A stretch of 64,000 nucleotides of DNA from Caldilineaceae bacterium (lineage in GTDB: Bacteria; Chloroflexota; Anaerolineae; Caldilineales; Caldilineaceae), in assembly GCA_022842065.1 (NCBI GenBank), contig JALHQH010000055.1:1-64000 (forward strand). Direction: 5' to 3'. Below are positions 164 through 40,311 of this stretch, piece after piece. How positions within the stretch are numbered: position 1 is the stretch's first letter; each line of letters starts with the position of its first letter. Under the pieces are notes generated by a model. That model was not told the DNA's origin and made no database searches. It saw only the letters and a program-made list of their open reading frames with translations. Position numbers and translations under genes: made by a program.

Positions 164-260
164 ACACCGAGAAGCCGCCTCAGCGGCTGGGCAATATTTA
201 GCTAGCCGCTGAGGCGGCTTCTCGATGTCAGGGCGGGATTTGAATCCCGTTGTAAGGTAG
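164..260. repeat. Palindromic element, copy 1 (GAAGCCGCCTCAGCGGCT arms)
   Basis: Arms of 25 bases at 164-188 and 204-228 differ at one position. They are followed by a direct segment reading GGGATTTGAATCCCGTTGT at 235-253. The same arms and the same trailing segment recur at 25250-25383, so this is one of two copies of a dispersed element. Apart from this and the hairpin at 61-126, bases 1-342 hold nothing recognisable. Confidence 0.8.
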
Positions 261-9237: not shown

Positions 9238-9303
9238 AGGTGACAGTCATTGCCCACAAATTGATTGCTTAACAGAATTGCCTGTGGGCAGTGACTGTCA
9301 CCT
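9238..9303 (-). terminator. Terminator-like hairpin overlapping the kinase stop
   Basis: Arms 9238-9258 and 9283-9303 (21 bases, one mismatch) flank a 24-base loop. The right arm contains the TGA of the hybrid kinase at 9298-9300. The remaining 8992-9297 gap shows no other element. Confidence 0.6.
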
Positions 9304-14803: not shown

Positions 14804-15937
14804 TCAGCCGCTGCCGGCAGCAGCGACGAGCGTGCCTAACTGCCCCGGCTCAAGCGCCACGCCCAACCCCGGCCCTTGGGGTACCCTGATCGACCAACCG
14901 GCGGTGATTAGTGGCTCCGTCAGAGCATGCGCCGTGTGAAAGAGCGGCCCGACAATGTCCGCCGCATAGCGTTCGACCGCGATGTTGGGCAAGGCGACAG
15001 TCACATGCGCCATCGCCGCCGAGGCAATATCCCACTCCAGATTGCTCCCAATCGTACAGTGGACCCCCGCCGCCTCGGCCATGCTCACAATCGCGACTGT
15101 GTTTAGGATGCCCCCATGTTTGCCAGGGTAGACGCTGATAATGTCCGCCGCGCCCTTTTGGATACAGGCCAAGGCATCTTGCATGGTAAAGATCGCCTCA
15201 TCGGCCATGACGGGGAGGCGGATCTGGCTACGCACGCGCGCCAGCCCGTCGAGATCCAGCCGATGGACCGGCTGCTCCACAAAGGCGACACCATACTCTT
15301 CCAGCCGAGGCGCGGCGCGGATTGCGTCGTTGACCGACCAGCCACCATTGGCATCCACCGTCAGCCGTATGTCGGGACCGATGGCGTCACGCACCTGCGC
15401 GATGCGCGCCAGGTCAAAATCGAGCGGATCATGCCCTACCTTTAGCTTGATCGTGCGGCAGCCCTCTTCGACAATGCGTTTGGCTGCCGCGGCTGATGCC
15501 ACCGGCCCAACCGGCATGACCGGGAAGCGCAGCGGCAGTTCAAAGGAGCGCACTGCGCCGCCGAGCAGTTGATAGAGCGGTACGTCCAACGCCTTCCCCA
15601 GAATGTCAAAGAGTGCCATTTCAAGCCCAGCTTTGGCAAAGGGGTTGGCAAAAGTCCGCCCGATCTTGGCCATACAGTGGCGGATCTGTCGTGGATCTTC
15701 CCCGATCAGCTTGGGCGCTAGATGTAGATCGATGACCGCCTGCGCCCCCAGGTAGGTCTCCCCACTCCAATCAGGTGAGCCATTGACCTCGCCAATGCCT
15801 TCAATGCCCGCATCGGTCTGTATGCGGATCAGCACAATGTGCGAGGTAAACCGAAAACCCTTCGTCTCTGTCACCTCCCCCACCCGCCGGTCAACGCCAA
15901 TGCGCAGGGGGATCGTTTCAATTGCCGTAATCTTCAT
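14804..15937 (-). CDS. Mandelate racemase/muconate lactonizing enzyme family protein
   Basis: The ATG at 15937 has AAGGA five bases upstream and gives 377 residues, typical of the family. The barrel shows the KLKVGHD lysine motif near residue 165 (general base), metal ligands in LTVDANGGW, VEQPV and MADEAI, and KHGGI near 270 as the second acid/base lysine. The family abstracts the proton alpha to a carboxylate, giving racemases, cycloisomerases, dipeptide epimerases or sugar-acid dehydratases. It is the last gene of the catabolic island. The 14480-14803 gap beyond it contains nothing recognised except a short GC-rich inverted repeat near 14790-14830. Confidence 0.88.
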   Translation of the reverse strand: MKITAIETIPLRIGVDRRVGEVTETKGFRFTSHIVLIRIQTDAGIEGIGEVNGSPDWSGETYLGAQAVIDLHLAPKLIGEDPRQIRHCMAKIGRTFANPFAKAGLEMALFDILGKALDVPLYQLLGGAVRSFELPLRFPVMPVGPVASAAAAKRIVEEGCRTIKLKVGHDPLDFDLARIAQVRDAIGPDIRLTVDANGGWSVNDAIRAAPRLEEYGVAFVEQPVHRLDLDGLARVRSQIRLPVMADEAIFTMQDALACIQKGAADIISVYPGKHGGILNTVAIVSMAEAAGVHCTIGSNLEWDIASAAMAHVTVALPNIAVERYAADIVGPLFHTAHALTEPLITAGWSIRVPQGPGLGVALEPGQLGTLVAAAGSG

Positions 15938-15960
15938 CGCAATCCTTCTTATCTGCTTAG

Positions 15961-16072
15961 TGACAAGGTGGCAGGGTGACATGGTGAAGGGGTGAAGGGG
16001 TGACAAGGTGAAATTTACCCTTCACCTTGTCACCCCTTCACCCTGCCACCATGTCACCCTGTCACCTTGTCA
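15961..16072. repeat. Palindrome built of GTGACAAG-like octamers
   Basis: Arms of 52 bases (15961-16012, 16021-16072) match with only a few mismatches around an eight-base loop. Each arm is itself a run of octamers of the type GTGACAAG, GTGACATG, GTGAAGGG. The right arm overlaps the creatininase stop codon. Confidence 0.85.
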
Positions 16073-16834
16073 TCTGCTCTCTCCATAAAACTCGACCATT
16101 GCCGCGGCCAGTGCTTCGACAATCGCGGTCCAGTACGCTTTGCCCAGGTCGGCGTCGCCGCGGTCGGGGCTGTCGCTGTAGCCGTCGATTGTTTGCCAAG
16201 AGCCATGTTGCTCGGCGCGATAGGGGCGATAGAAACTGCGCGGGTCAGAGCCAACCACGTGATCGCGATGGGGGCGCGGCTCTTGCACCAGATCGGGATA
16301 GAGTGCCAGGATCAACGAGGTCTCAAACGCGCCGGCGTGACCGGGCAAGCGCCCCGGCTGATGCGCATCGAGCGCCACTAGCGCATCCCAGGCCACCGTC
16401 CAATAGGAGGCGGCGGCGATGCTCACCGGGTGTTTGAGTGCCAGATCGCGGGCGACCAATTGCACCAATTCATTGTTACCCCCATGACCGTTGACAATAA
16501 AAATCTTGCGAAAGCCGCTGATAATCAACGACTCGGCCAGTTCATAGACAATGCGATAATAGCCCTCGGTGCTCAACGACATGGTGCCGCCAAAGGGCAG
16601 ATGATGTTGTGATGAGCCAAAGGGCAAAGTCGGCGCAACCAGGACAGGGATCTGCCCCGCGGCCTGTTGTGCCGCATTGCGCGCCAGCGATTCAACCGTG
16701 AGATAATCGGTCCCCACGGGCAGGTGTGGCCCATGTTGTTCCAACGCTCCCACCGGCCAGACGAGCAGCGTCTCGGCCGCCTGTTCGCGAGCAACGGTGC
16801 GGGTAATTTCCTGTAAGAGCAGACGCTTTGTCAT
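16070..16834 (-). CDS. Creatininase family amidohydrolase
   Basis: The 254-residue protein carries the creatininase metal-site motifs: EQHGPHLPVGTD near residue 32, SSQHHLPFGGT near 74, NGHGGN near 115, and GHAGAFETSL near 165. Family members hydrolyse cyclic or linear amides (creatinine, guanidino or formamide compounds, the 3-dehydro-scyllo-inosose hydrolase IolN) in the cytoplasm with Zn or Mn. AAGGA precedes the ATG. It lies within the island between the amidohydrolase and the enolase-superfamily gene. A second, distinct creatininase is at 39345. Confidence 0.9.
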   Translation of the reverse strand: MTKRLLLQEITRTVAREQAAETLLVWPVGALEQHGPHLPVGTDYLTVESLARNAAQQAAGQIPVLVAPTLPFGSSQHHLPFGGTMSLSTEGYYRIVYELAESLIISGFRKIFIVNGHGGNNELVQLVARDLALKHPVSIAAASYWTVAWDALVALDAHQPGRLPGHAGAFETSLILALYPDLVQEPRPHRDHVVGSDPRSFYRPYRAEQHGSWQTIDGYSDSPDRGDADLGKAYWTAIVEALAAAMVEFYGESR

Positions 16835-16857
16835 CGTACATGTTCCTTGCTAAGAAC

Positions 16858-16937
16858 AGAAGGCGGATTTGGCGGATTAGGCGGATTTTCGCTGATTTAT
16901 CCGCGTTCATCCGCCTAATCCGCCAAATCCGCCTTCT
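16858..16937. repeat. Palindrome of GGCGGATTT nonamers
   Basis: Perfect 29-base arms (16858-16886, 16909-16937) flank a 22-base loop. Each arm holds three tandem nonamers GGCGGATTT/GGCGGATTA. Confidence 0.9.
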
Positions 16938-16941
16938 ATTA

Positions 16942-17832
16942 CTACGCCCACTGCGGAAAAAAGCTCTTCCAATTTTCGTAGATGATCAGATCTTGAATCT
17001 CGGTCGGGATCTTGGGCAGCCCGGTGCCCTCCACCGGCTTATTGATCGCGCGCAGGCCGTTGATGACATTCGTGATCGTGCCGGAGGGGAAATCGGAGGC
17101 GAGCAGGATCTTGTGGACCACCCCATACTCCATCGCCGTCGCCATCGCTTGCCAGTAGCGCCAGGGGCGGTAGTGGACGGCGGAAATGTCGGTGTAAAGG
17201 TTGGGACATTTGCGCATCAGCACCACCGTATCGGTCTCCCACGGGTGGCCAAGGTGGGCGATGATCATCTTGAGATCAGGGAAATCCATTGCCACATCTT
17301 CCAATTGCAGGGGCAGCGCCCACTTAAGCTTGGCTTTGCTGGGAAAGGTCGTGCCCTGGTGCCACATGATCGGCAACCCATGCTCCTGGCACTTCTGGAA
17401 AAAGGGCCAATGTTGACGATCCTGCGGGTCAAAGTGCTGATAGGTTGGGCCGAGTTTCATGCCGCGCAGCCCCAGTGTTTTGACACAATAATCAATTTGG
17501 TCGAGACAGTCCGGCTCGTTCGGATCAACCGAAGCCCACCCTTCGAGCTTTTCCGGGTGTTGCCGCACATAGTCGGCGATCAGTTCATTTGGCACCCAGA
17601 TGCCGGTCGCCTTGGCTTGCAGGCCAAAGACCACCACTTTGTCCGCCGGCTGCGAGACCTCCCAATGGTTCTCCGGCGTTGAGTCATACGAGTGCAGATC
17701 CAGCCGCCCGACATAGGCCTCGCCCCCCGAATATTTGAGCTTGATCAACTTGGAGGCCAGCGCTTCCTGGGCATACTCTTCCGCGACGTGATCTGGGTAC
17801 CACATGAGGTGGGTGTGACAATCGACGATCAT
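16942..17832 (-). CDS. Amidohydrolase family 2 protein
   Basis: The 296-residue TIM-barrel protein starts with DCHTHL (first HxH metal pair), then shows MWHQGTT (about 165), AHLGHPW (about 198) and ASDFPSG (about 250), the usual amidohydrolase-2 metal and catalytic positions. Relatives are non-oxidative decarboxylases, hydratases or lactone hydrolases such as 2-pyrone-4,6-dicarboxylate lactonase. AGGAG precedes the ATG. In the island it may open a lactone or remove a carboxylate downstream of the dehydrating enzymes; that is inference. Confidence 0.88.
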   Translation of the reverse strand: MIVDCHTHLMWYPDHVAEEYAQEALASKLIKLKYSGGEAYVGRLDLHSYDSTPENHWEVSQPADKVVVFGLQAKATGIWVPNELIADYVRQHPEKLEGWASVDPNEPDCLDQIDYCVKTLGLRGMKLGPTYQHFDPQDRQHWPFFQKCQEHGLPIMWHQGTTFPSKAKLKWALPLQLEDVAMDFPDLKMIIAHLGHPWETDTVVLMRKCPNLYTDISAVHYRPWRYWQAMATAMEYGVVHKILLASDFPSGTITNVINGLRAINKPVEGTGLPKIPTEIQDLIIYENWKSFFPQWA

Positions 17833-17886
17833 ATTATCTTCTCTCCTGCATGGTTCTACAATGGCAACGTTATGGCTGGGTGGCGA

Positions 17887-17984
17887 CCGGGGTATAGACG
17901 CGGATTCAGGGGACGCGGATCATAGGAACACGGCAGGGGGATATTCGATAATCCGCACCGCCCGAATCCGCGTCTATACCCCGG
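17887..17984. repeat. Inverted repeat, 21-bp perfect arms
   Basis: Arms 17887-17907 and 17964-17984 match exactly and fill the gap between the SelA-like and amidohydrolase genes. The 56-base loop carries a partial second copy of the GACGCGGAT motif. Confidence 0.85.
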
Positions 17985-18000
17985 CTGTAACGCGACCATA

Positions 18001-19185
18001 TCAGTTACCGCCGACAATCGCTTTAACCCGCGCCGCAATCATCAGCTCCTCCCCCTCCTGCAAACCAAAGGGGTGAATGATCACTGCGCCTTGCGCCAAC
18101 TCCCGCTCACCGGGGTGGATCGACGGAGTGCCGGATTTGAGCGCCCAAATGAAATCGTTGCCACTCATGCCCAGCGCTGCCTGGTCGATCTGAATGCGCG
18201 CCAGCGGGAAACCGCCGCGATCCCCATCCGGCGTGATCAGCTCGGCGGTGACATGGGGCGTCCCGTGCAACTCTTCGCAGATGGTCTGGAGTTTGGCCCA
18301 ACAGGCCGCTTTTTCGGCCCCGTGATCGCGCTGAAAGTAGAGGCGCAGCGCCGTCACCAGCCCGATGATCTCCTCTTTGCCCGCTTTGTAACCACGTCCA
18401 ATGCCCTGGCGCGGAACAAAGGCCAAGGCTGCCGGGTCGAGCAGTTGCCGTGGCGCAGTCCATACTTCCGGCGTAAAATCCATATCGAGATGTTGCCAGG
18501 CAATCGCTGAGATCAACGCTTGGCGGCCACAGACAAAACCCGACGCCTGGGGGCCCCGGATATATTTACCCCCGCTAAAGCAGACCAGATCCGCGCCGGC
18601 GGCGACAAACTTGGTGAGATTCTGCGGATCGTCACAGCGCCCGGCTGCATCGACCACCACGGCGATGCCATGCTCGTGGGCCAGGGCGACGACATCCCCA
18701 ATCGCCAACTTGCTCTCCTGCCAGGGTAGGTGAAGAATCGCCACCGTCTGCGCATTGATCGCCGCGGCGATTTCAGCCAGACTGCACGCGTCGTCGCTGC
18801 CCACCTCAATGATCCGTCCACCGGCAGCTTCGACCGCGTGGTCATAATGGTTGCGATGAAAACGGGCCATGATCACTTCATTTTTCATGCCTGTGGTGTT
18901 GGGCAATTGGTCCATCTTGGCCGCATCCAGCCCGGTGATACAGGCTGCAATCGACAGCACCAGGGCGGCCTGCGCCCCCGAGGTGACATAGGCCGCTTCG
19001 GCCCCGGTCATGCCGGCAATCGCCTGGCCGGCGGCGTGCTGCAACTCTTCCATGCAGACAAATTCTCCAGCGGCGGCCTGCATTGCCGCGACGACTTCCG
19101 CGGGCATCAGGCTGCCGCCCAGGCGGGTGAAGGTGCCAATTGCGTTGATAATCGGCCGGACGCCGAGCGTAGCATAGATGCTCAT
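18001..19185 (-). CDS. SelA-like PLP-dependent enzyme
   Basis: The 394-residue fold-type I PLP protein begins GVRPIINAIGTFTRLGGS, as in selenocysteine synthase (SelA) relatives, and has the PLP lysine in CFSGGKYIRGP near residue 210. VVDAAGRCDD near 175 supplies the aspartate that contacts the ring nitrogen. No tRNA-Sec genes are nearby, and the sequence fits the subgroup of SelA-like lyases exemplified by D-glucosaminate-6-phosphate ammonia-lyase rather than true SelA. Its ATG overlaps the stop of the upstream dimethylformamidase-like gene, so they are co-translated. An amino-acid or amino-sugar-acid substrate is the best guess. Confidence 0.8.
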   Translation of the reverse strand: MSIYATLGVRPIINAIGTFTRLGGSLMPAEVVAAMQAAAGEFVCMEELQHAAGQAIAGMTGAEAAYVTSGAQAALVLSIAACITGLDAAKMDQLPNTTGMKNEVIMARFHRNHYDHAVEAAGGRIIEVGSDDACSLAEIAAAINAQTVAILHLPWQESKLAIGDVVALAHEHGIAVVVDAAGRCDDPQNLTKFVAAGADLVCFSGGKYIRGPQASGFVCGRQALISAIAWQHLDMDFTPEVWTAPRQLLDPAALAFVPRQGIGRGYKAGKEEIIGLVTALRLYFQRDHGAEKAACWAKLQTICEELHGTPHVTAELITPDGDRGGFPLARIQIDQAALGMSGNDFIWALKSGTPSIHPGERELAQGAVIIHPFGLQEGEELMIAARVKAIVGGN

Positions 19186-20828
19186 GCGCCCCCCAAAAAG
19201 CGGGTAATCACATTCGAGGTAATGCGCGAAATTGCATCATCGACCAGCAGACAGGGCACATAGGTGATCGAGCCGACGGAGAAGACGGCACCCTGTTGGC
19301 CGCTGGCGCTGGTCGTCTCGTAGTAGACAATTTCCGCGCCGCCGTCGTCGATGTTGGTGCCCTTGGCGAGCAGCACCGTGCCGGGCGGCGAGTGCGGACT
19401 CATCTTGTCGGTTTCGTGCCCGGAGGCCCCGCCGTTGACCCGCTCTTGCAGACTCTTTTCGCCAAAGATCGCGCCATTCTGCAACCCAGTGCCGGCAAAG
19501 ATCCAGTGGTCGGTGTTGATCGCACGGTAGGGTGCGGCGGTCATAATGCCCGTTTCAGTGCAGACGACGCCCAGCAGATTTGCCTCCGATTCGAAGGTGC
19601 GATGCATGCGGCTTTCCAAATAAATATCGGGGTTGTTGGGATCGGGCATGCCCAAGCCACCGCCGGTCGCGGGGGCCAGATGGGTTTTGAAGCGCATACG
19701 ATCTTCGCTTAGGAACTCGACTTCGCAGTTGAGGCCGTTGCCGCCCAGGTACATCAACTTGCCGCCCCGCTGCTGCACCCAATCCTTGACCTGCTGGTAC
19801 ATCTGGCGCGACCAATATTCTGGATGGACGCTGATGATCAGAATCTTGTAGGCATCGAGATCAAGGTCGCCATTGTGCAACTGCCATTCCGAGTAGTAGT
19901 CATAGGCAAAACCTTCGCGCTCTAGCCAGCCCAATAGCCGCCATTCCGCCGGGGCCATACCACAGGGTAAGCGCCCTTCAATCGGATCGGTCACCTCTTC
20001 GTGTTCGCGCACGACATTGCCCGGCTCAGGCCGTTCAAAGGAGAGCGGCAGATACTCTTCATCCTGAAAGCCCCAGACATTAAAGGAGCCAGCCATCGTA
20101 TAGCGGATCAGATCCTGGCGCGCATTCACCGTCGGTTCGGGCGGCAGTTGATGGGCGTTGATATAGTTGCTGCGCCCGCCAAAGTTGTTATAGGCCAGCC
20201 AGGTGTTGGACGAAGCGAGCACCGCAATTGGCGCGCTCGGTTCGGCCGGCGCGACAATCCACGGGAAGGAGAAAAACTCCCCCGACTTCTCGCCCTTGGC
20301 GTGGAAATAGTAGAGGCCGGAGCGTTGGGGACCAGGCACCAGTTGGGTATGGTGCGGGCTGCCATAGCCGGTCTTGTTCCACTGCACGCCGGTTTGGGTA
20401 TAGTCGCCATCGGGGGTAATCTGCATGACAGCGCGGGGGCCATGTTCGTCAAACCAACCCAAAAGTTTAACGAACTCCCGCTGCCAGCCATAACGCCAGA
20501 GGCTAAGGCGATAGGGCTCGGTGGCATGGACCCGAAATTCGGAGCGTTCGCCACTCTTCACCGCCCGCGGCCAGGCATAACCCATAATACAGTCCGTCAA
20601 GAGGCGGAAATGATAGGGTTGGGCGGGGTCGACGGTCATCGTCACACTTTTGGCGCCAAAGCCATCCTTGACCAGGGTGACATGGTATTCACCCGGCGCA
20701 ATTTCCGCCTGCACCGCCCCGCGTGGAGTCGAACGGACAATGGTGACCGTCTCGCCCCCCTGTTGAAATTCCAAGAGCACATCTGCCACGGCGACATAGC
20801 GCTCGTCACTGACATAGCCGATTAACAC
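19182..20828 (-). CDS. N,N-dimethylformamidase large-subunit-like protein (copy B)
   Basis: The protein has 548 residues and starts at GTG (20828) with AAGGAG upstream; the next codons match the start of its neighbour paralogue. Residues 1-85 form a beta-sandwich of carboxypeptidase-regulatory/PEGA type (APGEYHVTLVKDGFGAK). Residues 90-548 match the DmfA2-like domain, with STPRG, YYFHAKG, FGGRSNY and the strongly conserved SVHPEYWS and GGKLMYLGGNG segments. The known enzyme hydrolyses dimethylformamide using a mononuclear iron held by Tyr/Glu side chains. HPEYW supplies a Tyr and a Glu here. No small subunit gene is present. It is probably an amidase on another substrate. Confidence 0.8.
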   Translation of the reverse strand: MLIGYVSDERYVAVADVLLEFQQGGETVTIVRSTPRGAVQAEIAPGEYHVTLVKDGFGAKSVTMTVDPAQPYHFRLLTDCIMGYAWPRAVKSGERSEFRVHATEPYRLSLWRYGWQREFVKLLGWFDEHGPRAVMQITPDGDYTQTGVQWNKTGYGSPHHTQLVPGPQRSGLYYFHAKGEKSGEFFSFPWIVAPAEPSAPIAVLASSNTWLAYNNFGGRSNYINAHQLPPEPTVNARQDLIRYTMAGSFNVWGFQDEEYLPLSFERPEPGNVVREHEEVTDPIEGRLPCGMAPAEWRLLGWLEREGFAYDYYSEWQLHNGDLDLDAYKILIISVHPEYWSRQMYQQVKDWVQQRGGKLMYLGGNGLNCEVEFLSEDRMRFKTHLAPATGGGLGMPDPNNPDIYLESRMHRTFESEANLLGVVCTETGIMTAAPYRAINTDHWIFAGTGLQNGAIFGEKSLQERVNGGASGHETDKMSPHSPPGTVLLAKGTNIDDGGAEIVYYETTSASGQQGAVFSVGSITYVPCLLVDDAISRITSNVITRFLGGA

Positions 20829-20861
20829 AAGGTTCTCCTTTGTTGATGGTTAAAGGGGGAG

Positions 20862-20894
20862 GGATGAGGTGATGACAAGATCATCACCTCATCC
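20862..20894 (-). terminator. Hairpin between the two dimethylformamidase-like genes
   Basis: A 14-base perfect stem (20862-20875, 20881-20894) with a five-base loop lies ten bases past the upstream stop codon. It may attenuate or process the transcript. Confidence 0.6.
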
Positions 20895-20903
20895 TATCTT
20901 CTT

Positions 20904-22478
20904 TTATTTTTGCAAAAATCGCGTCAACACATTGCGCGTCACCTTGCTCACGCCATCGTCGACAATGATCGACAGGGTCCAGCAGAGGGAGCCGGTGGCA
21001 AAGACCGCGCCGCCACCGGGAGTTTCAAAGTAGGCTAGGTCAGCGCCGTCGCCGTCGGGCATGGCCGCGCCTGGCGTGGCACCGTTGATACCTTTAGCCA
21101 AGTGACAGATGTTGGCCGGCGAATGGGGCTGGATCTTGTCCAGTTCATGGCCGGACGCACCGCCGGGGCAGCGCTCATGCAAACTCGCTTGGCCGAAGAG
21201 ATCACCCCGCTTGAGCCCAGTGCCGGCAAAGGCCCAGTGGCTGTCATCGATCACCTGATAGGGCGCGCCGGATTGATAGCCGGAGTGGGTATACTCGACC
21301 CCCAGCAGCGTCGCCGCCGGTTCACCACGCAGATCCCATCTCTCTTCCTGGCGGCAGATCATGGTATATTCGTCGGCCATTTCAAATTCGGCGAGCAGCC
21401 CACAGCCGCCCAGGTACATCAGTTTGCCGCCCCGTTCATAGACCCAGGTCTTCACCTGATCGTACATCGCTTTGGACCAATATTCGGGGTGAGTGTTGAG
21501 GATCAGCACCTTGTAGTGATCGAGGTTGAGCCGCCCAAAGTGCAATTCAGTCTCAGCATAGAGGTCATAGGCGAAGCCCTCGCGCTCCAGCCAACCCAAG
21601 AGCCGCCACTCGGCCGGGGCCATTGCCGATTCGAGCCGCCCTTCGACGGGGTCGGTAATCTTTGCATCCTCCGGCACACAGTTAAAGCGCTCTGGGCGGT
21701 CAAATGAAAGGGGGGGCGCACTCACCTCAAAGGGCCAAACCGTAGGCGAGGTGTAACGCTTCAGATCCTGGCGCGCGTGAATCACCGGCTGCGGCGGCAA
21801 GGCATCCTGGTTGACATAGTTGCTGCGCCCGCCAAAGTTGTTATAGGCATTCCAGGTGCAATTCGAGGTGAGCACCGCGATCTCGGCCTGCGGCGTCGCG
21901 GGCATGACGATCCAGGGAAAGGAGAAAAAGCCACCCCCCTGGCTCTTGGCGTGAAAATAGTAGAGGCCACTGCGTTGGGGCGCGGTCACCCGCTGTTGAT
22001 GCCAGGCCGAGCCATAGCCAATCCGATTCCACTGCACACCCTTTTGGGTAAAGTCGCCATCGGGCAGCAGTTGCACCGTGACGCGCGGACCGTGATTGTC
22101 ATACCAGCCCAGGTTGCGGATCAACTCCTTTTGGTAGCCATAGCGCCAGAGGCCCAACTTGTACGCTTGGGGCGCATGGACACGGAACTCGGCCAGTTCC
22201 CCTGCCCGGCTCCACTTGGGCCAAACATAGCCTAACAGCTCATCGCGTAGGAGGCGAAAGTGGTGTGGTTGCTCGTTGCCGATGGTCACCTGTATCCGCT
22301 TGGCCCCATAGCCCGGCTTGTTGAGGATCACCTCGTAGTCACCCGGTGCAAGATCAGCCACTAACGCGCCGCTCGCAGTTGAATGGAGCGCCCACCGTTG
22401 TCCCGACCCATCAATCAACTCGACCGCCACATCGGGAATTGCCAAAAATTGTTCGTCGCTCACATAGCCGATTAGCAT
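20904..22478 (-). CDS. N,N-dimethylformamidase large-subunit-like protein (copy A)
   Basis: The ATG at 22478 gives 524 residues; the open frame upstream runs into hairpin DNA. The layout is the same as the adjacent copy B: an N-terminal beta-sandwich (GYVSDEQFLAIPDV..., APGDYEVILNKPGYGAK) and the large DmfA2-like domain with NTHPEYWSKAMYDQVKTW, GGKLMYLGGCG, FGGRSNYVN and LGWLEREGFAYDLY. The two copies are collinear throughout, so this is a tandem duplication that has diverged considerably. Different substrate ranges, or two subunits of one complex, are both possible. Confidence 0.8.
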   Translation of the reverse strand: MLIGYVSDEQFLAIPDVAVELIDGSGQRWALHSTASGALVADLAPGDYEVILNKPGYGAKRIQVTIGNEQPHHFRLLRDELLGYVWPKWSRAGELAEFRVHAPQAYKLGLWRYGYQKELIRNLGWYDNHGPRVTVQLLPDGDFTQKGVQWNRIGYGSAWHQQRVTAPQRSGLYYFHAKSQGGGFFSFPWIVMPATPQAEIAVLTSNCTWNAYNNFGGRSNYVNQDALPPQPVIHARQDLKRYTSPTVWPFEVSAPPLSFDRPERFNCVPEDAKITDPVEGRLESAMAPAEWRLLGWLEREGFAYDLYAETELHFGRLNLDHYKVLILNTHPEYWSKAMYDQVKTWVYERGGKLMYLGGCGLLAEFEMADEYTMICRQEERWDLRGEPAATLLGVEYTHSGYQSGAPYQVIDDSHWAFAGTGLKRGDLFGQASLHERCPGGASGHELDKIQPHSPANICHLAKGINGATPGAAMPDGDGADLAYFETPGGGAVFATGSLCWTLSIIVDDGVSKVTRNVLTRFLQK

Positions 22479-22515
22479 TGACTCTTTCCTCTGCTCACTT
22501 GGGGTTGGTTTTGCT

Positions 22516-22605
22516 GATTCCCACGCTCTGCGTGGGAATCCTGCGTGGACGCTCCGCGTCCAGGGCGCAGAGCGCCCCGTTGGGCATTCCACGCTGAGCG
22601 TGGAA
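22516..22605. repeat. Four consecutive small palindromes
   Basis: Four separate hairpins follow each other: 22516-22540 (GATTCCCACG arms), 22546-22562 (TGGACGC arms), 22563-22577 (GGGCGC arms) and 22587-22605 (TTCCACGCT arms). They fill the gap between the peptidase and copy A. Confidence 0.85.
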
Positions 22606-22616
22606 CGAGCAAACCC

Positions 22617-23996
22617 CTAAAAGACGCGCACCACCTGGCCGCGCTCGCGTTCCAGCCGTGCCAACACATCGGCCACGGTCACAGGGTTCGCCGGCCAATC
22701 GGCGGGGTCGACATAGGAAAGGCGCAACAGGAGGCGCGCCAGTTGCCCCACATACTCTTTCAGCTCGCGCGGGCGTACCTTGTCCGTCGTATCGCCCGGT
22801 TCATGGTGAAAATCGCTATCGGGGTGGCGACCCGCAAAGCGCCAGCGCCAGAGAAAGGCGGCGTCGATCCCCGCGCGCAGAAAAGGGTAGTGATCCGACG
22901 AGTAGTCGAGTTGGGCCATAACGTGACATTGCAACCCGTCTCCCATCTGGTCGAACTGCTGTTGAATCAGTGGGCGCAGGTGCGGAAAGCCGAGGACCAG
23001 CCCCTTCAGGTTGCCCGCGGCCAGTTCATCCAGGTTGATCGATAGGCGCGGGGGCGTTTCCGGGCCATAGTGCTGGTTGACAAAGGCATAGGCCCCTTGC
23101 AGCGTCTGCTCTTCGGCGCTATAGGTGGCAAAGCGGATGGTCCGCCCCGGCACAATGCCTAGCTCTTGTTGAAGGCGGGCGAGCACACGGGCCGTCTCTA
23201 AAACGACAATCGTACCCGACGCATTGTCATTGCCCCCCGGCGTGTCGTAGACCGTATCATGGTGACCGCCCAGCAGCAGGTGCTCGTCCGGCCAGTGTGT
23301 CCCCGGCAAGGCGGCCAGCACATTGTGCGCTGGTGCGGTGTAAAATTCACTTTCCACCTGTAAGTATAACGATTGCCCCAGGCGCGCCCGTTTGCGCAGC
23401 AGCCCGCCGACCTCACGCGTCACCGCCACCGCGGGCAGCGGATGTTCGTCGGGGCCAGGATCGATCCAGTCGCCGGCGCTGTGATATTCGACGCGGCCGC
23501 CGTCCTTGCGATCAACGACCACCGCGGCGACGGCACCCGCCGCGGCCAGCGCAGCCAGCCGGGTGGCGAGCGGCTGCGGGGGAGTAAAGGGTTCCAAGGT
23601 CAACGCCATGATCGCGATTGCGCCGCGCAGCCGCGCCCGTTGCTCGTCAATCAGGTGCGGCGTGCCAAAGCCGACATCCACCAGCGGCGCGGTCAGCGTC
23701 ACCGGCGGGCAGCGGTTAAAGGGCAAGATCAGCACAGGCGTCTCATCCTCGACGATCTGGGCCGCGGCCTCCGCCCAACGCCAACTGTGGAGGGCATACT
23801 CCTCCAGCGTCGCCTCGGCCAACCCACTGGCTGCGAACTGGTCGCGGATGTAGTTAACTGTCTGCCACTCGGCCGGCGACGAGGCCCAACGCGGGCCAAT
23901 CGTGTCACAGAGCATGGTAAGATGATCGGCGATGCGTGATCCCACCCACGCTTCCCCGATCAGAAACCGGTCGATCACTTGCCAATTCAACATCAT
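22617..23996 (-). CDS. M28 family metallopeptidase
   Basis: The 459-residue protein shows the di-zinc M28 pattern: GGHHDTVYDTPGGNDNASG near residue 240 (His, Asp), YSAEEQTLQGA near 290 (catalytic Glu and ligand Glu), INLDELAAG near 323 (Asp) and FHHEPGDTTDK near 400 (His). Residues 100-220 form a PA-type insertion. No signal peptide is seen, so it is probably cytoplasmic, trimming imported peptides or N-acyl compounds. AGGAG lies six bases from the ATG at 23996. It follows the two permeases in the same direction. Confidence 0.9.
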   Translation of the reverse strand: MMLNWQVIDRFLIGEAWVGSRIADHLTMLCDTIGPRWASSPAEWQTVNYIRDQFAASGLAEATLEEYALHSWRWAEAAAQIVEDETPVLILPFNRCPPVTLTAPLVDVGFGTPHLIDEQRARLRGAIAIMALTLEPFTPPQPLATRLAALAAAGAVAAVVVDRKDGGRVEYHSAGDWIDPGPDEHPLPAVAVTREVGGLLRKRARLGQSLYLQVESEFYTAPAHNVLAALPGTHWPDEHLLLGGHHDTVYDTPGGNDNASGTIVVLETARVLARLQQELGIVPGRTIRFATYSAEEQTLQGAYAFVNQHYGPETPPRLSINLDELAAGNLKGLVLGFPHLRPLIQQQFDQMGDGLQCHVMAQLDYSSDHYPFLRAGIDAAFLWRWRFAGRHPDSDFHHEPGDTTDKVRPRELKEYVGQLARLLLRLSYVDPADWPANPVTVADVLARLERERGQVVRVF

Positions 23997-24032
23997 TGTT
24001 GACTCCTACTTGCTTGGTTATACCAGCGGTTG

Positions 24033-24077
24033 TCATCATTTAACATTTTCTACACGAGTAATAATGTTAAATGATGA
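24033..24077. repeat. AT-rich inverted repeat
   Basis: Fifteen-base arms (TCATCATTTAACATT and its complement, 24033-24047 and 24063-24077) lie just upstream of the peptidase gene. Unlike the GC-rich palindromes this could be an operator. Confidence 0.6.
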
Positions 24078-24126
24078 TAGAGCCGAGCCATCCCCGCCCC
24101 GCCATAAACGCGGCCAGTGGGCACCC

Positions 24127-24195
24127 GGGCTAGAGAACGACGCCGGGTAAACCCGGCTAATGGAGCCGGGTTTACCCGGCGTCGTTCTCTAGCCC
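24127..24195. repeat. Perfect 32-bp-arm palindrome
   Basis: Arms 24127-24158 and 24164-24195 are exact complements around a five-base loop. The arms themselves include a nested GCCGGGTAAACCCGGC palindrome. Together with the AT-rich repeat they occupy most of the 23997-24323 gap. Confidence 0.92.
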
Positions 24196-24290
24196 TGTGG
24201 CTTTAGCCCAGGGCGAGCGTGTCAAACCCACGACTTCCCGCCGGCAGAACCCGTTGCATAATCACGTTTTTTCTTCGTGTGTCTTCGTGC

Positions 24291-24310
24291 CGGGAGCCCA
24301 TTGGGCGCGT
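24291..24310. repeat. Dispersed CGGGnGCCCnnnGGGCGCG element, copy 1
   Basis: The same about-19-base unit recurs at 40265-40283, 48891-48909 and 52318-52336, each time between genes, with changes only at the three-base centre and one flanking position. Confidence 0.65.
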
Positions 24311-24323
24311 GGAACATCGTTTT

Positions 24324-25205
24324 TTATTGCCGCAGCCGCGGGTCAAGGGCATCGCGCAGCGCATCACCAAAGAGATTCCAGCCCAGCACCGCCAGCGCAA
24401 TTGCCAGCCCTGGATAGATGGCGACCCAGGGGGCCAGTTCCATAAACTTGCGCCCCGTCCCAAGCATCGCGCCCCACGAGGGATCCGGCGGTTGGGTGCC
24501 CAGCCCCAGGAAGGAGAGGGTCGCTTCGGCCAGGATCGCGGTGGAAAAGGAGAGGGTCGCCTGCACGATGATCGGCGCGGCAATGTTGGGCAACACATAG
24601 CGCCACATTACTTGGAACTGCCGTGCGCCAATCGCGTGGGCACCCTCCACATATTGTTGCTGCATCACCGCCAGGGTGGGGCCACGTACAATGCGTGCAA
24701 ATTGGGGCGCATAGACGATCCCAATCGCCAACATCGCGGTGGAGATGCTTGGCCCTAACACGCCGGCCAATACAATAATCAGAATGACGGTCGGGAAGGC
24801 AAACATAATATCCACGACCCGGCCAATAATGCTGTCGAGCCAGCCGCGGTAGTAGCCGGCGACCAACCCCAGCGCGCCACCAAGCAGCAGGGCAATCCCC
24901 ACCGAGATTACCCCGACCTGGAGCGAGACACGCGCGCCATAGATCAGCCGACTCAGAATATCGCGCCCAAATTCATCGGCCCCCAACCAATAGGTGCCAT
25001 CGGGCGGGAGCAGGCGCTCAGCCGGCTGGGCAATCGGATCATGGGGGGCTACCCAAGGGGCCACCCCAGCCAGCACGATAAAAAAGAGCACCAGCAGCAG
25101 CCCGACCACGCCCGAGGTGCGGCGTCGCCACATCTGCACGACGGCACGCAAGCGACTGCGCTCTTTGCCCAACGCCATTGGTTGTTTTAGTTCAAGTGTA
25201 GCCAT
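24324..25205 (-). CDS. ABC transporter permease (DppC-type)
   Basis: The 293-residue membrane protein of the family 5 (oligopeptide/dipeptide/nickel) system has an N-terminal OppC_N segment with one membrane helix (about 30-52), then a five-helix BPD_transp_1 domain. The EAA loop is visible as YVEGAHAIGARQFQVMWRYV. The ATG at 25205 is preferred to a TTG two codons earlier. It pairs with the DppB-type permease upstream; the cognate ATPases are absent from the window. Confidence 0.92.
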   Translation of the reverse strand: MATLELKQPMALGKERSRLRAVVQMWRRRTSGVVGLLLVLFFIVLAGVAPWVAPHDPIAQPAERLLPPDGTYWLGADEFGRDILSRLIYGARVSLQVGVISVGIALLLGGALGLVAGYYRGWLDSIIGRVVDIMFAFPTVILIIVLAGVLGPSISTAMLAIGIVYAPQFARIVRGPTLAVMQQQYVEGAHAIGARQFQVMWRYVLPNIAAPIIVQATLSFSTAILAEATLSFLGLGTQPPDPSWGAMLGTGRKFMELAPWVAIYPGLAIALAVLGWNLFGDALRDALDPRLRQ

Positions 25206-25249
25206 TAGCAAGATAACTCAATGGTAAGTGGTGATTGGCGATGCTGTTG

Positions 25250-25383
25250 GTCTACCCTACGCAATGGGGTTGAAACCCCTTGCTAACACCGAGAAGCCGC
25301 CTCAGCGGCTGCATGCGATTGACCAGCCGCTGAGGCGGCTTCTCGGTGTTAGCAAGGGATTTGAATCCCGTTGTAAGGTAGAC
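25250..25383. repeat. Palindromic element, copy 2 (about 60-bp arms)
   Basis: Arms 25250-25311 and 25324-25383 pair imperfectly over their whole length, and the inner 35 bases pair perfectly. The inner part is the same hairpin as at 164-228, and the trailing GGGATTTGAATCCCGTTGT is shared too. It fills most of the gap between the two permease genes. Confidence 0.88.
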
Positions 25384-25431
25384 CAACCGTATGACTAGAG
25401 ATTGGGTGATTTTGCGCCCAATCACCAATCT

Positions 25432-26382
25432 CTAATCATACCGAATCCGTGGGTCAACATAGGCATAGAGCACATCGACCAGCAGGTTGATCAGGACAAA
25501 AACGACGGCGATAAAGAAGACACCGCCCTGGACCAGGGTGTAATCACGCTGGTAGATGCCGTTGAGGATCATCCAGCCGATGCCGGGCAGGCCAAAGATC
25601 TGCTCGATCACCACCGCGCCGCCCAAGAGCAAGCCGAGTTGCACCCCCATCACGGTCACGACGGGGATAAAGGCATTCTTCAGGGCATGGCGCACCAGGA
25701 TCACGCGCCCGCCCAAGCCTTTGGCGTGCGCCGTGCGAATGTAATCCTGCCCCAATACTTCCAACATGGAGGAACGCACCATGCGCATAATCGCCGCGAC
25801 CAACGCTGCGCTTAGCGCGATCACCGGCATGATCATCATCTGTAGATTGGTAACGGGATCTTTGAAGATGCTCACCCAGAGCGGTGACGGTTGCCAGCGC
25901 AGCCAGAGCGAAGTGCCCAGCAAGAGCATCGTCGCCAGCCAGAAGTTGGGCACAGAAAGGCCGATCAACCCGACAACCTGTGAGGTAAATTCGGCCATGC
26001 CCCGCCGCCGCACCGCGGCCCAGATCCCCAACGGCACGGCGATCAACCAGGAGACGAGCAACGAAAGCAAGCTCAACTCCAGCGTAATCGGGAAGCGCTG
26101 TTGGATGATCGCGAGCACCGGTTGGCTGCTGCGCAGGGAAAGGCCAAAGTCGCCCTGCAAGACCGCACCCAGCCAGCGGAAATATTGAATATGGAGAGGG
26201 GCATCCAAGCCCAACATCCGTTCCAACGTCGCCCGCTGTTCTGCCGAAATATTCAGTTCAGGACCAACCAAGACGCGCACCACATCACCCGGCAGCAGGC
26301 GCATCAGCCCAAAGACCAAAAGGGAGATGCCCAACAGGGTTGGGATCAGTTGCACCAGTCGGCGCAGGATATATTTGCTCAT
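25432..26382 (-). CDS. ABC transporter permease (DppB-type)
   Basis: The 316-residue protein has the standard OppB/DppB start (ILRRLVQLIPTLLGISLLVFGLMRLLPGD), an N-terminal periplasmic region to about 95, and five further helices. The EAA loop is visible as YIRTAHAKGLGGRVILVRHALKNA. It forms the permease heterodimer with the DppC-type gene and receives substrate from the upstream binding protein. Confidence 0.93.
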   Translation of the reverse strand: MSKYILRRLVQLIPTLLGISLLVFGLMRLLPGDVVRVLVGPELNISAEQRATLERMLGLDAPLHIQYFRWLGAVLQGDFGLSLRSSQPVLAIIQQRFPITLELSLLSLLVSWLIAVPLGIWAAVRRRGMAEFTSQVVGLIGLSVPNFWLATMLLLGTSLWLRWQPSPLWVSIFKDPVTNLQMMIMPVIALSAALVAAIMRMVRSSMLEVLGQDYIRTAHAKGLGGRVILVRHALKNAFIPVVTVMGVQLGLLLGGAVVIEQIFGLPGIGWMILNGIYQRDYTLVQGGVFFIAVVFVLINLLVDVLYAYVDPRIRYD

Positions 26383-26385
26383 AGG

Positions 26386-26511
26386 GTAAATCAGTAAATC
26401 AGTAAATCAGTAAATCAGTAAATCAGTAGATTGGTAAATCGGTAGATCAGTTCAGCTGTCCCGATTTACCGATTTACTGATCTACTGATCTACCGATTTA
26501 CCAATCTACTG
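26386..26511. repeat. Octamer array and palindrome (GTAAATCA units)
   Basis: Eight tandem octamers run from 26386 to 26449, the first five being perfect GTAAATCA and the rest variants such as GTAGATTG. The 26460-26511 segment is made of the same octamers in reverse orientation, and 28 bases pair exactly with 26424-26451. The structure fills the space between the permease and the binding-protein genes. Confidence 0.92.
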
Positions 26512-26514
26512 TGC

Positions 26515-28173
26515 TCACTTATCCAGCCAGACGTGCTTCAGCGACCAGGAGCGGCGGGTGAAGGCGCTTTGCTCGTAGTCTTTGACATAGGGTTGCAGCC
26601 CTTCGACCATGTTGTCAACCGCGACCCAGATCATGGGTGATTCGGTGAGCAGGATTTCCTGTGCTTCGCGGTAGAGGGCATGGCGCTTTTCCAGGTCCAA
26701 CTCGGCGCGGGCCGCGGGTAGGATCTCGTCCATACGCTCGTTTTTGTAGCCGACCGCATAGGGATTTTCCGAGAAGAAACGGGCCCAAACGAAGCCATCC
26801 GGATCGTGGCGGGGGCTAAAGGCGTTGATGCCCACGTCGTAGTTCCAGTTGCCGTCGGGGCTGGCTTCCTGGATGTAAACGCCCTGTTCCACCAGCCGAA
26901 TCTGCACATCGATGCCAATGCGGGCCAGTTGTTCTTTCCAAACGACGCCGGCCCCGGTATAGAAGCCGGAACCGCCAAAGTCGGCGACGAGCAGATCCAT
27001 TTGCTGCCCTTCGGCAACGCCAGCCTCTTGCAACAATGCCTTGGCCTTCTCCAGATCTTCCTGGTAATATTTTTCGCGCAATTCGTCCGGCGGGATAAAC
27101 CAATCGCCAAAGCCGGTCGGAATCGGGCCGGAGATCGTGCCGGCGCCCAGCAGCGCCTTTTCGATCAACTCATCGCGGTTGGTGGCAAGACTGATGGCCT
27201 GGCGGACCCGTACATCACTCCAAGGCTCGCGCAACATGTTAAAGACAAAGATAAAGAGGAAGGTGCGTGGCCCTTTGAGCAGCACCAGATTTTGATCATC
27301 GGCCAGGCGCTGTTCGCCTAAGGCAGTGAGGAAGGCATAGTCGACCTGACTGGCGCGCAGGGCGGCAATGCGGGTATCCTCGTCGACGAGGATCTTGAAG
27401 GTGACCTTGTCCAGGTAGGGCAGCGGCGCGCCCCAGTAATCGGGGAATTTTTCTAGTTCAATCACATCCTGCGGCACATATTGGATCAACTTGTAGGGGC
27501 CGGTGCCGATAATCTCACTGTCGAGATTCGTCTCTTCCATCGCGCCCTTTTTGATAATCGCCGAACTGCGCAGAATCGCAAAGGCACCGAGCAGCGGTGG
27601 GAAGGGCGCTTTGGTGGTGAACTTGATGGTGTGCGTGTCAACAATCTCGACTGATTCGACCTGGTCAAAATTACTGCGCCAGACCGCAGGACCGTCAGGG
27701 TCGAGCACAATGTCAAAGGTGTATTTCACATCCTCCGCGGTGAAGTCGGAACCGTCATGCCACTTGACCCCCTGGCGCAACTTGAAGATATAGGTCAGAT
27801 CGTCGGGTTGCTCCCATGATTCGGCCAGCGAGGGGATAATGCTGAGCTTGGCGTCGTAGGCGGTCAGGCTTTCGTAACAATGTTCAAAGCCCTGGGTCGA
27901 AGCAAAGTTGGAGTTGGTGATCGGGTTGAGGGCGACCGGGTCGCTTTCGGCGGCCCAGATCGACTCGCCGCCGGCCACGGGGCCGGTTGGCGCGGCCGCC
28001 GTATCACCACCTGGCGCGGGCGCTGCCGCCGGCACAGCACAGGCGGCGAGTAAATTGACCACTGCCGGCAATCCTAGCCCTAAAAGTGCCGCCCGTCGCA
28101 TTAACTCGCGGCGGGAAAGCCGACTGTTGCGCAAATCCTCGGTCAAACGCTGAAGTGAATCTTGATCGTTCAT
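26515..28173 (-). CDS. ABC transporter substrate-binding protein, family 5
   Basis: The 552-residue protein has an N-terminal twin-arginine region (LSRRELMRRAALLGLGLP), a lipobox LLAAC near residue 45 and an Ala/Pro-rich linker, so it is a Tat-exported lipoprotein. The mature part follows the SBP_bac_5 pattern: YESLTAYDAKLSIIPSLAESW, FKLRQGVKWHDGSDFTAEDVKYTFD, and ETNLDSEIIGTGPYKL. Family members bind peptides, but also sugars and opines. Directly downstream of the GntR gene, it is the first structural gene of the island. Confidence 0.93.
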   Translation of the reverse strand: MNDQDSLQRLTEDLRNSRLSRRELMRRAALLGLGLPAVVNLLAACAVPAAAPAPGGDTAAAPTGPVAGGESIWAAESDPVALNPITNSNFASTQGFEHCYESLTAYDAKLSIIPSLAESWEQPDDLTYIFKLRQGVKWHDGSDFTAEDVKYTFDIVLDPDGPAVWRSNFDQVESVEIVDTHTIKFTTKAPFPPLLGAFAILRSSAIIKKGAMEETNLDSEIIGTGPYKLIQYVPQDVIELEKFPDYWGAPLPYLDKVTFKILVDEDTRIAALRASQVDYAFLTALGEQRLADDQNLVLLKGPRTFLFIFVFNMLREPWSDVRVRQAISLATNRDELIEKALLGAGTISGPIPTGFGDWFIPPDELREKYYQEDLEKAKALLQEAGVAEGQQMDLLVADFGGSGFYTGAGVVWKEQLARIGIDVQIRLVEQGVYIQEASPDGNWNYDVGINAFSPRHDPDGFVWARFFSENPYAVGYKNERMDEILPAARAELDLEKRHALYREAQEILLTESPMIWVAVDNMVEGLQPYVKDYEQSAFTRRSWSLKHVWLDK

Positions 28174-28241
28174 CGCTTTGTCCTTTGCTCTGCATTTGGA
28201 TGGTCTAACGCTTGTTGCGGGGGGTGGGTATGTCGGTGCTG

Positions 28242-30120: not shown

Positions 30121-30223
30121 CCGACGACTGACGACTGATGACCACCGGCGATCTTCCAAGAGCAGACCGAGAAGTTTGCTATTGTTGGTCGTCAGTCGTC
30201 AGTCGTCGGTCGTCGGTCGTCGT
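30121..30223. repeat. Palindrome with tandem GTCGTCA/GTCGTCG heptamers
   Basis: Arms 30121-30144 and 30186-30209 pair with one mismatch. The right arm continues as five heptamers of the GTCGTCA/GTCGTCG type. Related heptamers occur at 52291-52318 and 53218-53270. Confidence 0.85.
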
Positions 30224-37339: not shown

Positions 37340-37597
37340 TTAAAATTGAACTAAGTGAACATCTAAACTTAACTTCCCGATTCGCTCGCAAGGGATCGTC
37401 AGATTCCGGCTGGGATCTGACGATCCCTTGCGAGCGAATCGGGAACTTGTTTTCGTCGTCATCAGTTGATGAATGGGGATTTGCGCGATTAACGCAGCTA
37501 CCGTTGCTGGACAGGGGCGCAACATTTTACCCCTTGTGTCAAAGAATTTAACGCGCTCGGCAGGAATATCCATGATTAAATCCGCTTGTATGGTCAT
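37340..37597 (-). CDS. Possible small protein interrupted by a palindrome
   Basis: An ATG at 37597 has AGGGA five to six bases upstream and opens 85 codons. The first 50 residues (MTIQADLIMDIPAERVKFFD at the start) look protein-like. The remainder is encoded by the palindrome at 37374-37445. No family was recognised. Either a short gene has taken up a palindrome in its 3' end or the frame is fortuitous. The remainder of the 37277-37982 gap holds nothing recognisable except the promoter below. Confidence 0.4.
   Translation of the reverse strand: MTIQADLIMDIPAERVKFFDTRGKMLRPCPATVAALIAQIPIHQLMTTKTSSRFARKGSSDPSRNLTIPCERIGKLSLDVHLVQF
37374..37445. repeat. Perfect 31-bp-arm palindrome
   Basis: Arms 37374-37404 and 37415-37445 are exact complements around ten bases. 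The inner part AAGGGATCGTCAGAT is shared with the palindrome at 56571-56630. Confidence 0.92.
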
Positions 37598-39236: not shown

Positions 39237-39281
39237 TCATCTAGTCCGAGCTGTGTCTAATACACAGCCTGGACTAGATGA
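39237..39281. terminator. Hairpin between MFS and creatininase genes
   Basis: Twenty-base arms (39237-39256, 39262-39281; two mismatches) with a five-base loop follow the MFS gene. It could act as an attenuator if the two genes share a transcript. Confidence 0.6.
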
Positions 39282-40234: not shown

Positions 40235-40311
40235 ATAGGACTTACGCAGCGTACGGCGGCTGAGCGGGGGCCCTTCGGGCGCGAAGCCAGAGTACGCTGC
40301 GTAAGTCCTAT
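40235..40311. repeat. Palindrome carrying the dispersed CGGGnGCCC element (copy 2)
   Basis: Perfect 20-base arms (40235-40254, 40292-40311) enclose a loop that contains the 19-base dispersed unit at 40265-40283. Nothing else was recognised in the 40167-40523 gap except the AGGGGGA ribosome site of the next gene. Confidence 0.85.

Follow-up and report, generated by a model that had tools for sequence, protein, structure and literature searches.

Why should almost every junction between the genes of one bacterial operon carry a long inverted repeat, and almost every time one of a different sequence? The question is raised by a 64,000-nt stretch of DNA from a Caldilineaceae bacterium (Chloroflexota; contig JALHQH010000055.1, positions 1 to 64,000; hereafter the window), in which hairpins follow one another through a ten-gene run. 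The answer that we favor, and to which we give about an even chance, is that these are 3′-end hairpins of single cistrons, which protect or partly terminate the upstream cistron and are renewed by slippage and template switching. In the direction of transcription, the run encodes a family-5 substrate-binding protein (SBP; SBP_bac_5), the permeases permB and permC, an M28 peptidase, DMFA1 and DMFA2 (both DMFA2_C), a SelA-like pyridoxal phosphate (PLP) enzyme, an Amidohydro_2 protein, a creatininase and an MR/MLE protein. The run and its hairpins are as follows.

14804..28173, minus strand: ten-gene run, transcribed from 28173 to 14804, presumably as one transcript and treated here as an operon
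15961..16072, minus strand: hairpin in the creatininase / MR/MLE gap, with degenerate 8-nt units (GTGACAAG-like) in its arms
16855..16940, minus strand: hairpin in the amidohydrolase / creatininase gap, with 9-nt units (GGCGGATTT) in its arms
17871..18000, minus strand: hairpin in the SelA-like / amidohydrolase gap, with GCGGAT motifs in each arm of its best part
20862..20894, minus strand: short perfect hairpin of 14 bp between the two DMFA2_C genes, 9 nt past the stop codon
22516..22605, minus strand: cluster of short hairpins in the M28 peptidase / DMFA1 gap, best score 12
24033..24077, minus strand: 15-bp perfect hairpin in the permC / M28 gap (arms 15 nt, 100%)
24127..24195, minus strand: 32-bp perfect hairpin in the permC / M28 gap (arms 32 nt, 100%)
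25241..25392, minus strand: compound hairpin in the permB / permC gap, its core recurring at 164-228
26386..26511, minus strand: hairpin at the SBP-to-permB junction, 3 nt past the SBP stop codon, with 8-nt units (GTAAATCA-like) in its arms

A reading of the sequence alone (the sequence-only reading) had counted long inverted repeats in eight of nine gaps of an island that began with a GntR gene. The count holds for the ten genes from SBP to MR/MLE, where the ninth junction is a gene overlap, as had been said; with GntR included it becomes 8 of 10, since the SBP/GntR gap (28174-28241) contains no hairpin and folds at only -5.2 kcal/mol. The palindromes that it listed are present, except that 22516-22605 is a set of several short hairpins and not a single long palindrome, and they are indeed mutually different apart from one recurrence near base 164, which consists of a 25-nt core in common with 25262-25373. 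Arms measure 52 nt in 15961-16072 (92% complementary), 42 nt in 16855-16940 (88%, with a 29-bp perfect part beginning 4 nt past the stop codon), 53 nt in 17871-18000 (77%), 14 nt in 20862-20894 (100%), 50 nt in 25262-25373 (92%) and 56 nt in 26400-26511 (80%, with perfect 28-nt arms at 26424-26511). With edges as given in the sequence-only reading, the hairpins start -3, 4, 16, 9, 11, 128, 48 and 3 nt past the upstream stop, and the creatininase stop codon TGA (16072-16070) forms the first three bases of the 15961-16072 stem. Folding on the transcript, proposed earlier as a check, gave -28.6 to -164.4 kcal/mol for the stretches across all eight occupied gaps (native sequences only). Two listed open reading frame (ORF) starts affect these gaps: that of DMFA1 (22592) is too early, the database entry P0001 (524 aa) beginning at 22478, and that of MR/MLE (16006) is probably also too early, the true start probably being the ATG at 15937 behind AGAAGG.

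We scored palindromes without gaps (+1 per match, -2 per mismatch, loop of at most 60 nt). The window contains 20 of score at least 14, while five dinucleotide-preserving shuffles yielded 0, 0, 1, 0 and 0; chance is excluded as their origin because the shuffles gave one palindrome in all. That inverted chimeras arose in assembly or amplification is extremely unlikely. The window may be a metagenome record, which would leave room for such artefacts; against this, like elements occur in other genomes at defined places and with a polarity, and a control of 150 kb of E. coli K-12 held no palindrome of score at least 18, compared with 14 in the window. Within the window, the operon is the denser part: palindromes of score at least 14 occupy 7 of its 10 gaps (22516-22605 falls below the cut-off) and 8 of 44 gaps outside it (Fisher p = 0.0027), and the permuted maximum over nine successive gaps gives p = 0.024. 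Both values are post hoc, as the region had been picked for this density.

We assessed the distribution of such palindromes in relatives, chiefly in G001 (isolate RI_153, 8.7 Mb), a Chloroflexota-like genome and genus-mate of G044. ORFs came from a simple longest-ORF caller, making starts and some gaps approximate; gaps above 700 nt were dropped from the gap-class and junction-type counts (G001 and G381, a second genome of the class), and four G001 palindromes and one of the window, lying inside ORFs, were left out of gap counts. With identical sequences counted once, 1.39 Mb of G001 holds 160 distinct palindromes of score at least 18. In 664 kb of it there are 86, with 22 in 87 convergent, 51 in 335 codirectional and 9 in 87 divergent gaps; at score at least 14, the gaps occupied are 51 of 132 convergent, 156 of 694 codirectional and 18 of 146 divergent. 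The link with operons proposed in the sequence-only reading was not borne out, and a feature specific to operons was rejected for G001: at score at least 18, 20 of 173 inner codirectional gaps were occupied, compared with 22 of 85 convergent ones, the outcome that the sequence-only reading had itself named as refuting such a link, and no clustering in successive gaps was found on the five contigs of relatives tested (C67, C94, C99 and two of G044; p = 0.15-1.0). As G001 hairpins favor convergent gaps and do not cluster in successive ones, the window operon is a dense patch of a wider feature. That feature is unevenly spread: density per 10 kb is 0.43 in G044 and 0.75 in G031, ranges from 0 to 1.5 among sampled members of the family, and is zero in 100 kb of G039, while G381 has one palindrome of score at least 18 in 108 kb.

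The position that does recur is the one behind a stop codon. Among 56 codirectional hairpins of G001 and the window (the distance counts omit any lying over 80 nt within a gene or at least 500 nt away), 22 begin between -20 and +10 nt of the upstream stop and two lie as near to the downstream start; overall, the stop is the closer of the two for 36 hairpins and the start for 20 (p = 0.044). Bacteria in general are described as enriched in perfect inverted repeats at +50 to +80 bp past stops (PMC13155455; here and below, published work is cited from the parts of the papers available to us).

The longest tandem arrays belong to the hairpin at the SBP-to-permease junction of the window, and for this reason we compared junction types in G001, where stretches rich in ABC genes had been sampled deliberately. 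No profile was used to recognize SBPs; the criteria were a location next to a permease gene, length, a small number of membrane spans and recurrence, and 43 of 48 candidates were retained. At score at least 14, hairpins occupy 21 of 40 SBP-to-permease junctions, compared with 5 of 47 permease-to-permease (p = 3.8e-5), 5 of 33 X-to-SBP (p = 0.0013) and 103 of 457 other-to-other junctions (p = 9e-5); restricted to net gaps of 20-250 nt, the p-values are 0.016, 0.0014 and 0.018, respectively. Other-to-permease junctions reach 9 of 14, above the SBP-to-permease share (6 of 14 at score at least 18), and their upstream genes are perhaps in part unrecognized SBPs. A stricter initial gene classifier, replaced before the final counts, had given 6 of 9 SBP-to-permease and 0 of 4 permease-to-permease junctions, and ORF overlap hid at least one hairpin next to an SBP junction (C94, 200202-200303). 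In G381, where an upstream gene was taken as SBP-like if it lacked a Walker motif and had no more than two membrane spans, the counts were 5 of 8 SBP-like-to-permease and 0 of 9 permease-to-permease junctions (p = 0.009). The enrichment that would mark stem-loops downstream of SBP genes is therefore found in both genomes, and the suggestion that the repeats set protein ratios stands where it could be tested, without the operon link that had come with it. The single SBP-to-permease junction of the window is occupied, yet so are most other junctions of its operon.

A hairpin at this site could act by ending transcription in part. Partial terminators inside the operon, of the kind reported past SBP genes in Ruminiclostridium, would set the ratios of transcripts from this same SBP-to-translocator junction, and those of Ruminiclostridium have tracts lower in U and stems longer than canonical ones (PMC9045158); in addition, the homologous SBP/permB junction of the G001 contig WGMT01000093.1 (L001, 3997-4102) combines a hairpin with a T-run. 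On the other side, a run of at least four T after the stem, in the direction of the transcript, follows none of the nine operon hairpins tested, nor any of the 21 scored at SBP-to-permease junctions of G001, and eight partial terminators in series would be expected to starve the distal genes; we consider this explanation quite unlikely. Elsewhere among G001 codirectional hairpins such T-runs follow 17 of 143. The stem with U-tract of an intrinsic (Rho-independent) terminator is thus not what these elements present, in agreement with the earlier statement that they are not ordinary terminators. The likeness to the SBP stem-loops of cellulolytic Clostridia is one of place, SBP-to-translocator, where the hairpin was found to give an excess of SBP; the Clostridial ones, putative intrinsic terminators within the operon, have U-rich tracts (PMC9045158), unlike the scored hairpins here, which have no such T-run and whose stems often consist of mirrored repeats.

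These mirrored repeats bear on how the hairpins arise. Four of the 14 window palindromes of score at least 18 have clearly tandem arms, with units of 8, 9, 8 and 7 nt, as do 51 of the 160 in G001 (period 7 in 29, 8 in 11, 9 in 10 and 6 in 1). The two arms agree better in register than when shifted by one unit, with identities of 0.970 and 0.761 in the window and of 0.945 and 0.754 in G001, where 48 of 51 palindromes are better in register. At variant unit positions of G001 the other arm mirrors the variant in 250 cases and shows the state of the neighboring unit in 18. The order of unit variants is mirrored between arms: the second arm repeats the first in reverse complement, down to its variants, which fits template switching, a process described as creating and correcting hairpin stems in one step (PMC8794818). 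The same paper ties it to an unequal orientation of base pairs in stems, with G-C and U-A favored; G001 stems agree in the first half only, G-C exceeding C-G (844 vs. 341) and A-T exceeding T-A (674 vs. 477).

The arms also have a polarity. Among the 160 G001 palindromes of score at least 18, 143 have a purine-rich 5′ arm and 16 a purine-poor one, with one tie; a purine-rich 5′ arm is present in 9 of 12 palindromes from other stretches of the family, compared with 3 of 15 (score at least 16) from 21 loci of other phyla. Neighboring intergenic arrays form 49 pairs, and the inverted ones among them begin with the G-rich array in 32 cases and with the C-rich array in 2. Stops in all frames of the 5′ arm occur in 10 of 35 tandem hairpins (shuffled mean 2.3) and in the 3′ arm in 0 of 35, an excess that is suggestive only, because shuffling destroys periodicity. 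A GTGATTN heptamer array (two mismatches allowed) is present in 85 of 396 genomes of the class, and G001 has 625 overlapping matches, compared with 32 for a reversed control pattern. Two G001 contigs end inside long heptamer arrays (L126, end of C67, 22 copies; L127, start of C99, 19 copies). Such arrays may break assemblies and hence be undercounted, given these contig ends.

Repeats of this kind are known from other phyla. G-rich heptamers (GGGAATC in Xanthomonas, GGGGA(T/C)T in Nostoc) lie on the sense strand just past stops and form convergent inverted pairs, of which two Xanthomonas genomes have 70 and 75, and tandem heptanucleotides of Calothrix are mentioned in the same paper (PMC4692102). 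The post-stop, sense-strand placement and the convergent inverted pairs are found here as well, as are degenerate 7-nt units in gaps that are under-represented between divergent ORFs (PMC4692102). Unlike those repeats, the ones here comprise several families of 7-, 8- and 9-nt units per genome, some with only GG runs, their arms are mirrored unit by unit into long stems, and they are in excess at SBP-to-permease junctions. TAACTGA heptamers of Beggiatoaceae likewise form intergenic 7-nt arrays with a patchy distribution, but lie mostly upstream of start codons in direct arrays, with only one inverted repeat in the account available (PMC4679880). Our literature search, in which subscription journals were thinly covered, showed no account of long hairpins of mirrored 7-9-nt units in Chloroflexota among the titles and opening lines of abstracts that it listed. 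A further likeness is to the cyanobacterial short tandemly repeated repetitive (STRR) sequences, degenerate heptamers between genes.

One could suppose that slippage and template switching simply build hairpins wherever selection tolerates them, mostly past stops. Such neutral growth would account for the mirrored arms, for hairpins in every class of gap, divergent ones included, and for the wide range of density within the family. It would not predict the SBP-to-permease excess over permease-to-permease and X-to-SBP junctions, nor the purine-rich 5′ arm of G001 when set against the loci of other phyla, and we hold it unlikely.

If hairpins are grown and replaced in place, orthologous junctions should show it. 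L001 is the nearest relative of the operon found in the genome collection, with 72-88% protein identity for SBP, permB, permC, M28, DMFA1 and DMFA2; near relatives are also represented, as proteins only, by P0002-P0005 (78-85% identical). Its SBP/permB gap (106 nt) has an imperfect hairpin unrelated to that of the window, so that the SBP-to-permease junction is occupied in both with different sequences; its permB/permC (48 nt) and DMFA1/DMFA2 (35 nt) gaps are compact and hairpin-free, and at these two junctions only the window has hairpins. L001 is too distant to show the ancestral state of hairpin copying. Between contigs C94 of G001 and C72 of G044, 27 adjacent junctions of reciprocal best hits could be compared: 19 are empty in both, five are occupied on one side and three in both, namely a convergent one with a common core, a convergent one with different hairpins, and one before an ABC permease. 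At the last, both hairpins have tandem arms built of unrelated units, GGGGATT-like and ATTGGGT-like. Its downstream gene has a PF00528 match, its upstream gene was read as an SBP from the translation, and the junction lies outside the G001 SBP-to-permease list used for the counts. Together with the mirrored variants, this junction supports the earlier proposal of a process that grows palindromes.

Some palindromes, such as the pair at 164 and 25262, would on the favored explanation be dispersed copies akin to repetitive extragenic palindromic (REP) sequences or miniature inverted-repeat transposable elements (MITEs), located in similar sites. A broader alternative is that dispersed mobile palindromes of this kind (REPs, bacterial interspersed mosaic elements (BIMEs) or MITE-like elements) insert or survive best past stops, any effect on mRNA being incidental. 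The palindromes of the window outside the operon, strand not assigned, are relevant here.

164..228: palindrome with a 25-nt core in common with 25262-25373
9238..9303: palindrome of score 18, at the 3′ end of ORF 9298-11121
30121..30209: hairpin with 7-nt units (GACGACT) in its arms, 1 nt past a stop codon
31124..31165: 21-bp perfect palindrome, 21 nt past a stop codon
33279..33344: 26-bp perfect palindrome
37374..37445: 31-bp perfect palindrome, with core GGGATCGTCAGAT in common with 56571-56630
39237..39281: palindrome of score 14
40235..40311: 20-bp perfect palindrome
56571..56630: palindrome in a convergent gap, with core GGGATCGTCAGAT

The palindromes at 37374-37445 and 56571-56630, which are 19 kb apart and have one core with different outer arms, are probably copies of a dispersed element, and both this pair and that of 164 and 25262 are what mobile palindromes would leave. 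Of the 160 G001 palindromes, 65 fall into families (at least 85% identity over at least 30 nt), including non-tandem dispersed ones of 8, 4 and 4 members; Y1_Tnp-domain matches, which do not resolve the REP-associated tyrosine transposase (RAYT) subtype, occur in G001 (3), G031 (7) and G044 (1). Chloroflexi are one of the phyla in which GTAG REPs have been reported, and flanking ORFs often take a TAG stop from the end of a REP (PMC3733652); by eye, GTAG stands beside 25250-25383 and beside 33279. Against mobility, 95 of the 160 are singletons, as are 29 of the 51 of tandem type, and G001 with three Y1_Tnp matches is rich in palindromes while G031 with seven is poorer. REPs are short (20-40 bp) and of high copy number, and plain insertion would not mirror unit variants. 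The likeness to REPs and BIMEs (malE/malF of E. coli; GTAG/CGTC REPs, PMC3733652) lies in extragenic palindromes near ORF ends, also between SBP and permease genes; the hairpins here are mostly mutually different, and the conserved sequence and high copy number of REPs were not found, though a minority form families. The repeat core of the window had a single match, with one mismatch, in 1 of 46 genomes of the order. Taken as the general explanation, mobile palindromes seem to us somewhat unlikely.

Two candidate causes in the cell machinery were also considered. Loss of Rho was rejected for G001: Rho_RNA_bind matches are present in 44 of 46 genomes of the family, 42 of them strong, with weak matches only in G035 and G044 and no match in either G006 or G024. 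In 16 of 46 genomes the strong match is accompanied by a second Rho_RNA_bind match that is weak (about 22-50 bits), for example at G001:C18:241846-242058. As for a loss of SbcCD, SbcD matches exceeded the NCBIfam cut-off in 1 of 46 genomes, were weaker and mostly partial in 42 (perhaps another phosphoesterase) and absent in 3, the pattern being alike in palindrome-rich and palindrome-poor genomes.

Elsewhere in the window, Rfam at gathering scores gave one match, RF01687 (Acido-Lenti-1 RNA; 44 bits, 36120-36165), outside the operon and directly past the stop of ORF 35066-36118, in a window that looks Chloroflexota-like. A sigma factor encoded in the window has matches at 69-72% among proteins named Chloroflexi, Caldilineaceae and Anaerolineales. 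A perfect 15-bp tandem repeat (3.3 copies, 4815-4864) follows a palindrome, and a 246-bp repeat of about three copies (7112-7909) lies within the long ORF 4960-9021.

We therefore return to the explanation of 3′-end hairpins renewed in place. Under it, the transcript would fold directly behind a translated cistron into a hairpin that blocks 3′-to-5′ exonucleases, and may also partly terminate transcription; because of this block, the upstream cistron would decay more slowly or outnumber the next one. That 3′ hairpins impede such exonucleases is documented (PMC7509114), and stem-loops downstream of SBP genes in Clostridia favor the upstream cistron (PMC9045158). The post-stop hairpin without a U-tract and the SBP-to-permease excess fit a 3′-end barrier or a partial terminator of this kind. 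In E. coli, an effect of this kind is ascribed to the REP sequences in the malE/malF gap. As for origin, a short post-stop sequence may expand by replication slippage into a degenerate array of 7-9-nt units, and template switching primed by the hairpin may then rewrite one arm from the other together with its variants, which would yield the mirrored order. Selection would retain the hairpin at useful sites and not its sequence, so that the letters would turn over at a fixed position.

Several observations weigh against this explanation. At score at least 18 the excess shrinks: SBP-to-permease junctions are occupied in 11 of 40 cases, permease-to-permease in 3 of 47 (p = 0.0093), X-to-SBP in 1 of 33 and other-to-other in 55 of 457 (p = 0.012), and once net gaps are matched the difference is kept only against X-to-SBP (p = 0.016; 0.28 and 0.11 against permease-to-permease and other-to-other). 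SBP-to-permease gaps are also longer (median 134 vs. 16 nt). The L001 hairpin with a T-run scores below 14 and so stands outside the 21 hairpins scored for T-runs. At four of the five occupied SBP-like junctions of G381 the hairpins are short and without evident tandem units, which makes the junction effect separable from the growth of tandem arms. Of the eight occupied junctions of the window operon, only one is SBP-to-permease, and the hairpins between permC and M28 and between amidohydrolase and creatininase are left unexplained. The polarity weakens outside G001: in the window the 5′ arm is purine-rich in 13 of 14 palindromes but has more G than C in only 7 of 14, and in G044 it is purine-rich in 10 of 14 (p = 0.09). 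Finally, post-stop placement may only reflect tolerated insertions, and the presence of the same units in arrays at many places speaks for a spread in trans, which slippage and template switching alone would not produce.

A more far-reaching possibility, which we put forward tentatively and consider doubtful, is a regulatory element whose place is inherited and whose sequence is not: this Chloroflexota lineage would keep a long 3′-end hairpin on selected cistrons, SBP genes foremost, as its letters are replaced by slippage and by copying from the hairpin template, with the purine-first polarity and the stops of the 5′ arm as part of the design. If so, translation would stop where the stem begins. 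The finding links two topics that are usually kept apart, namely post-stop repeats of heptamer type and the hairpins that set ratios within operons, and the mirrored order of units is a readable record of hairpin-templated copying. With 160 palindromes in 1.39 of 8.7 Mb, sampled non-randomly, G001 may contain perhaps about 1000 such elements, in which the birth and replacement of RNA hairpins could be watched. The finding further suggests that sequence conservation serves poorly for tracing 3′-end signals, as the site may persist when the letters do not.

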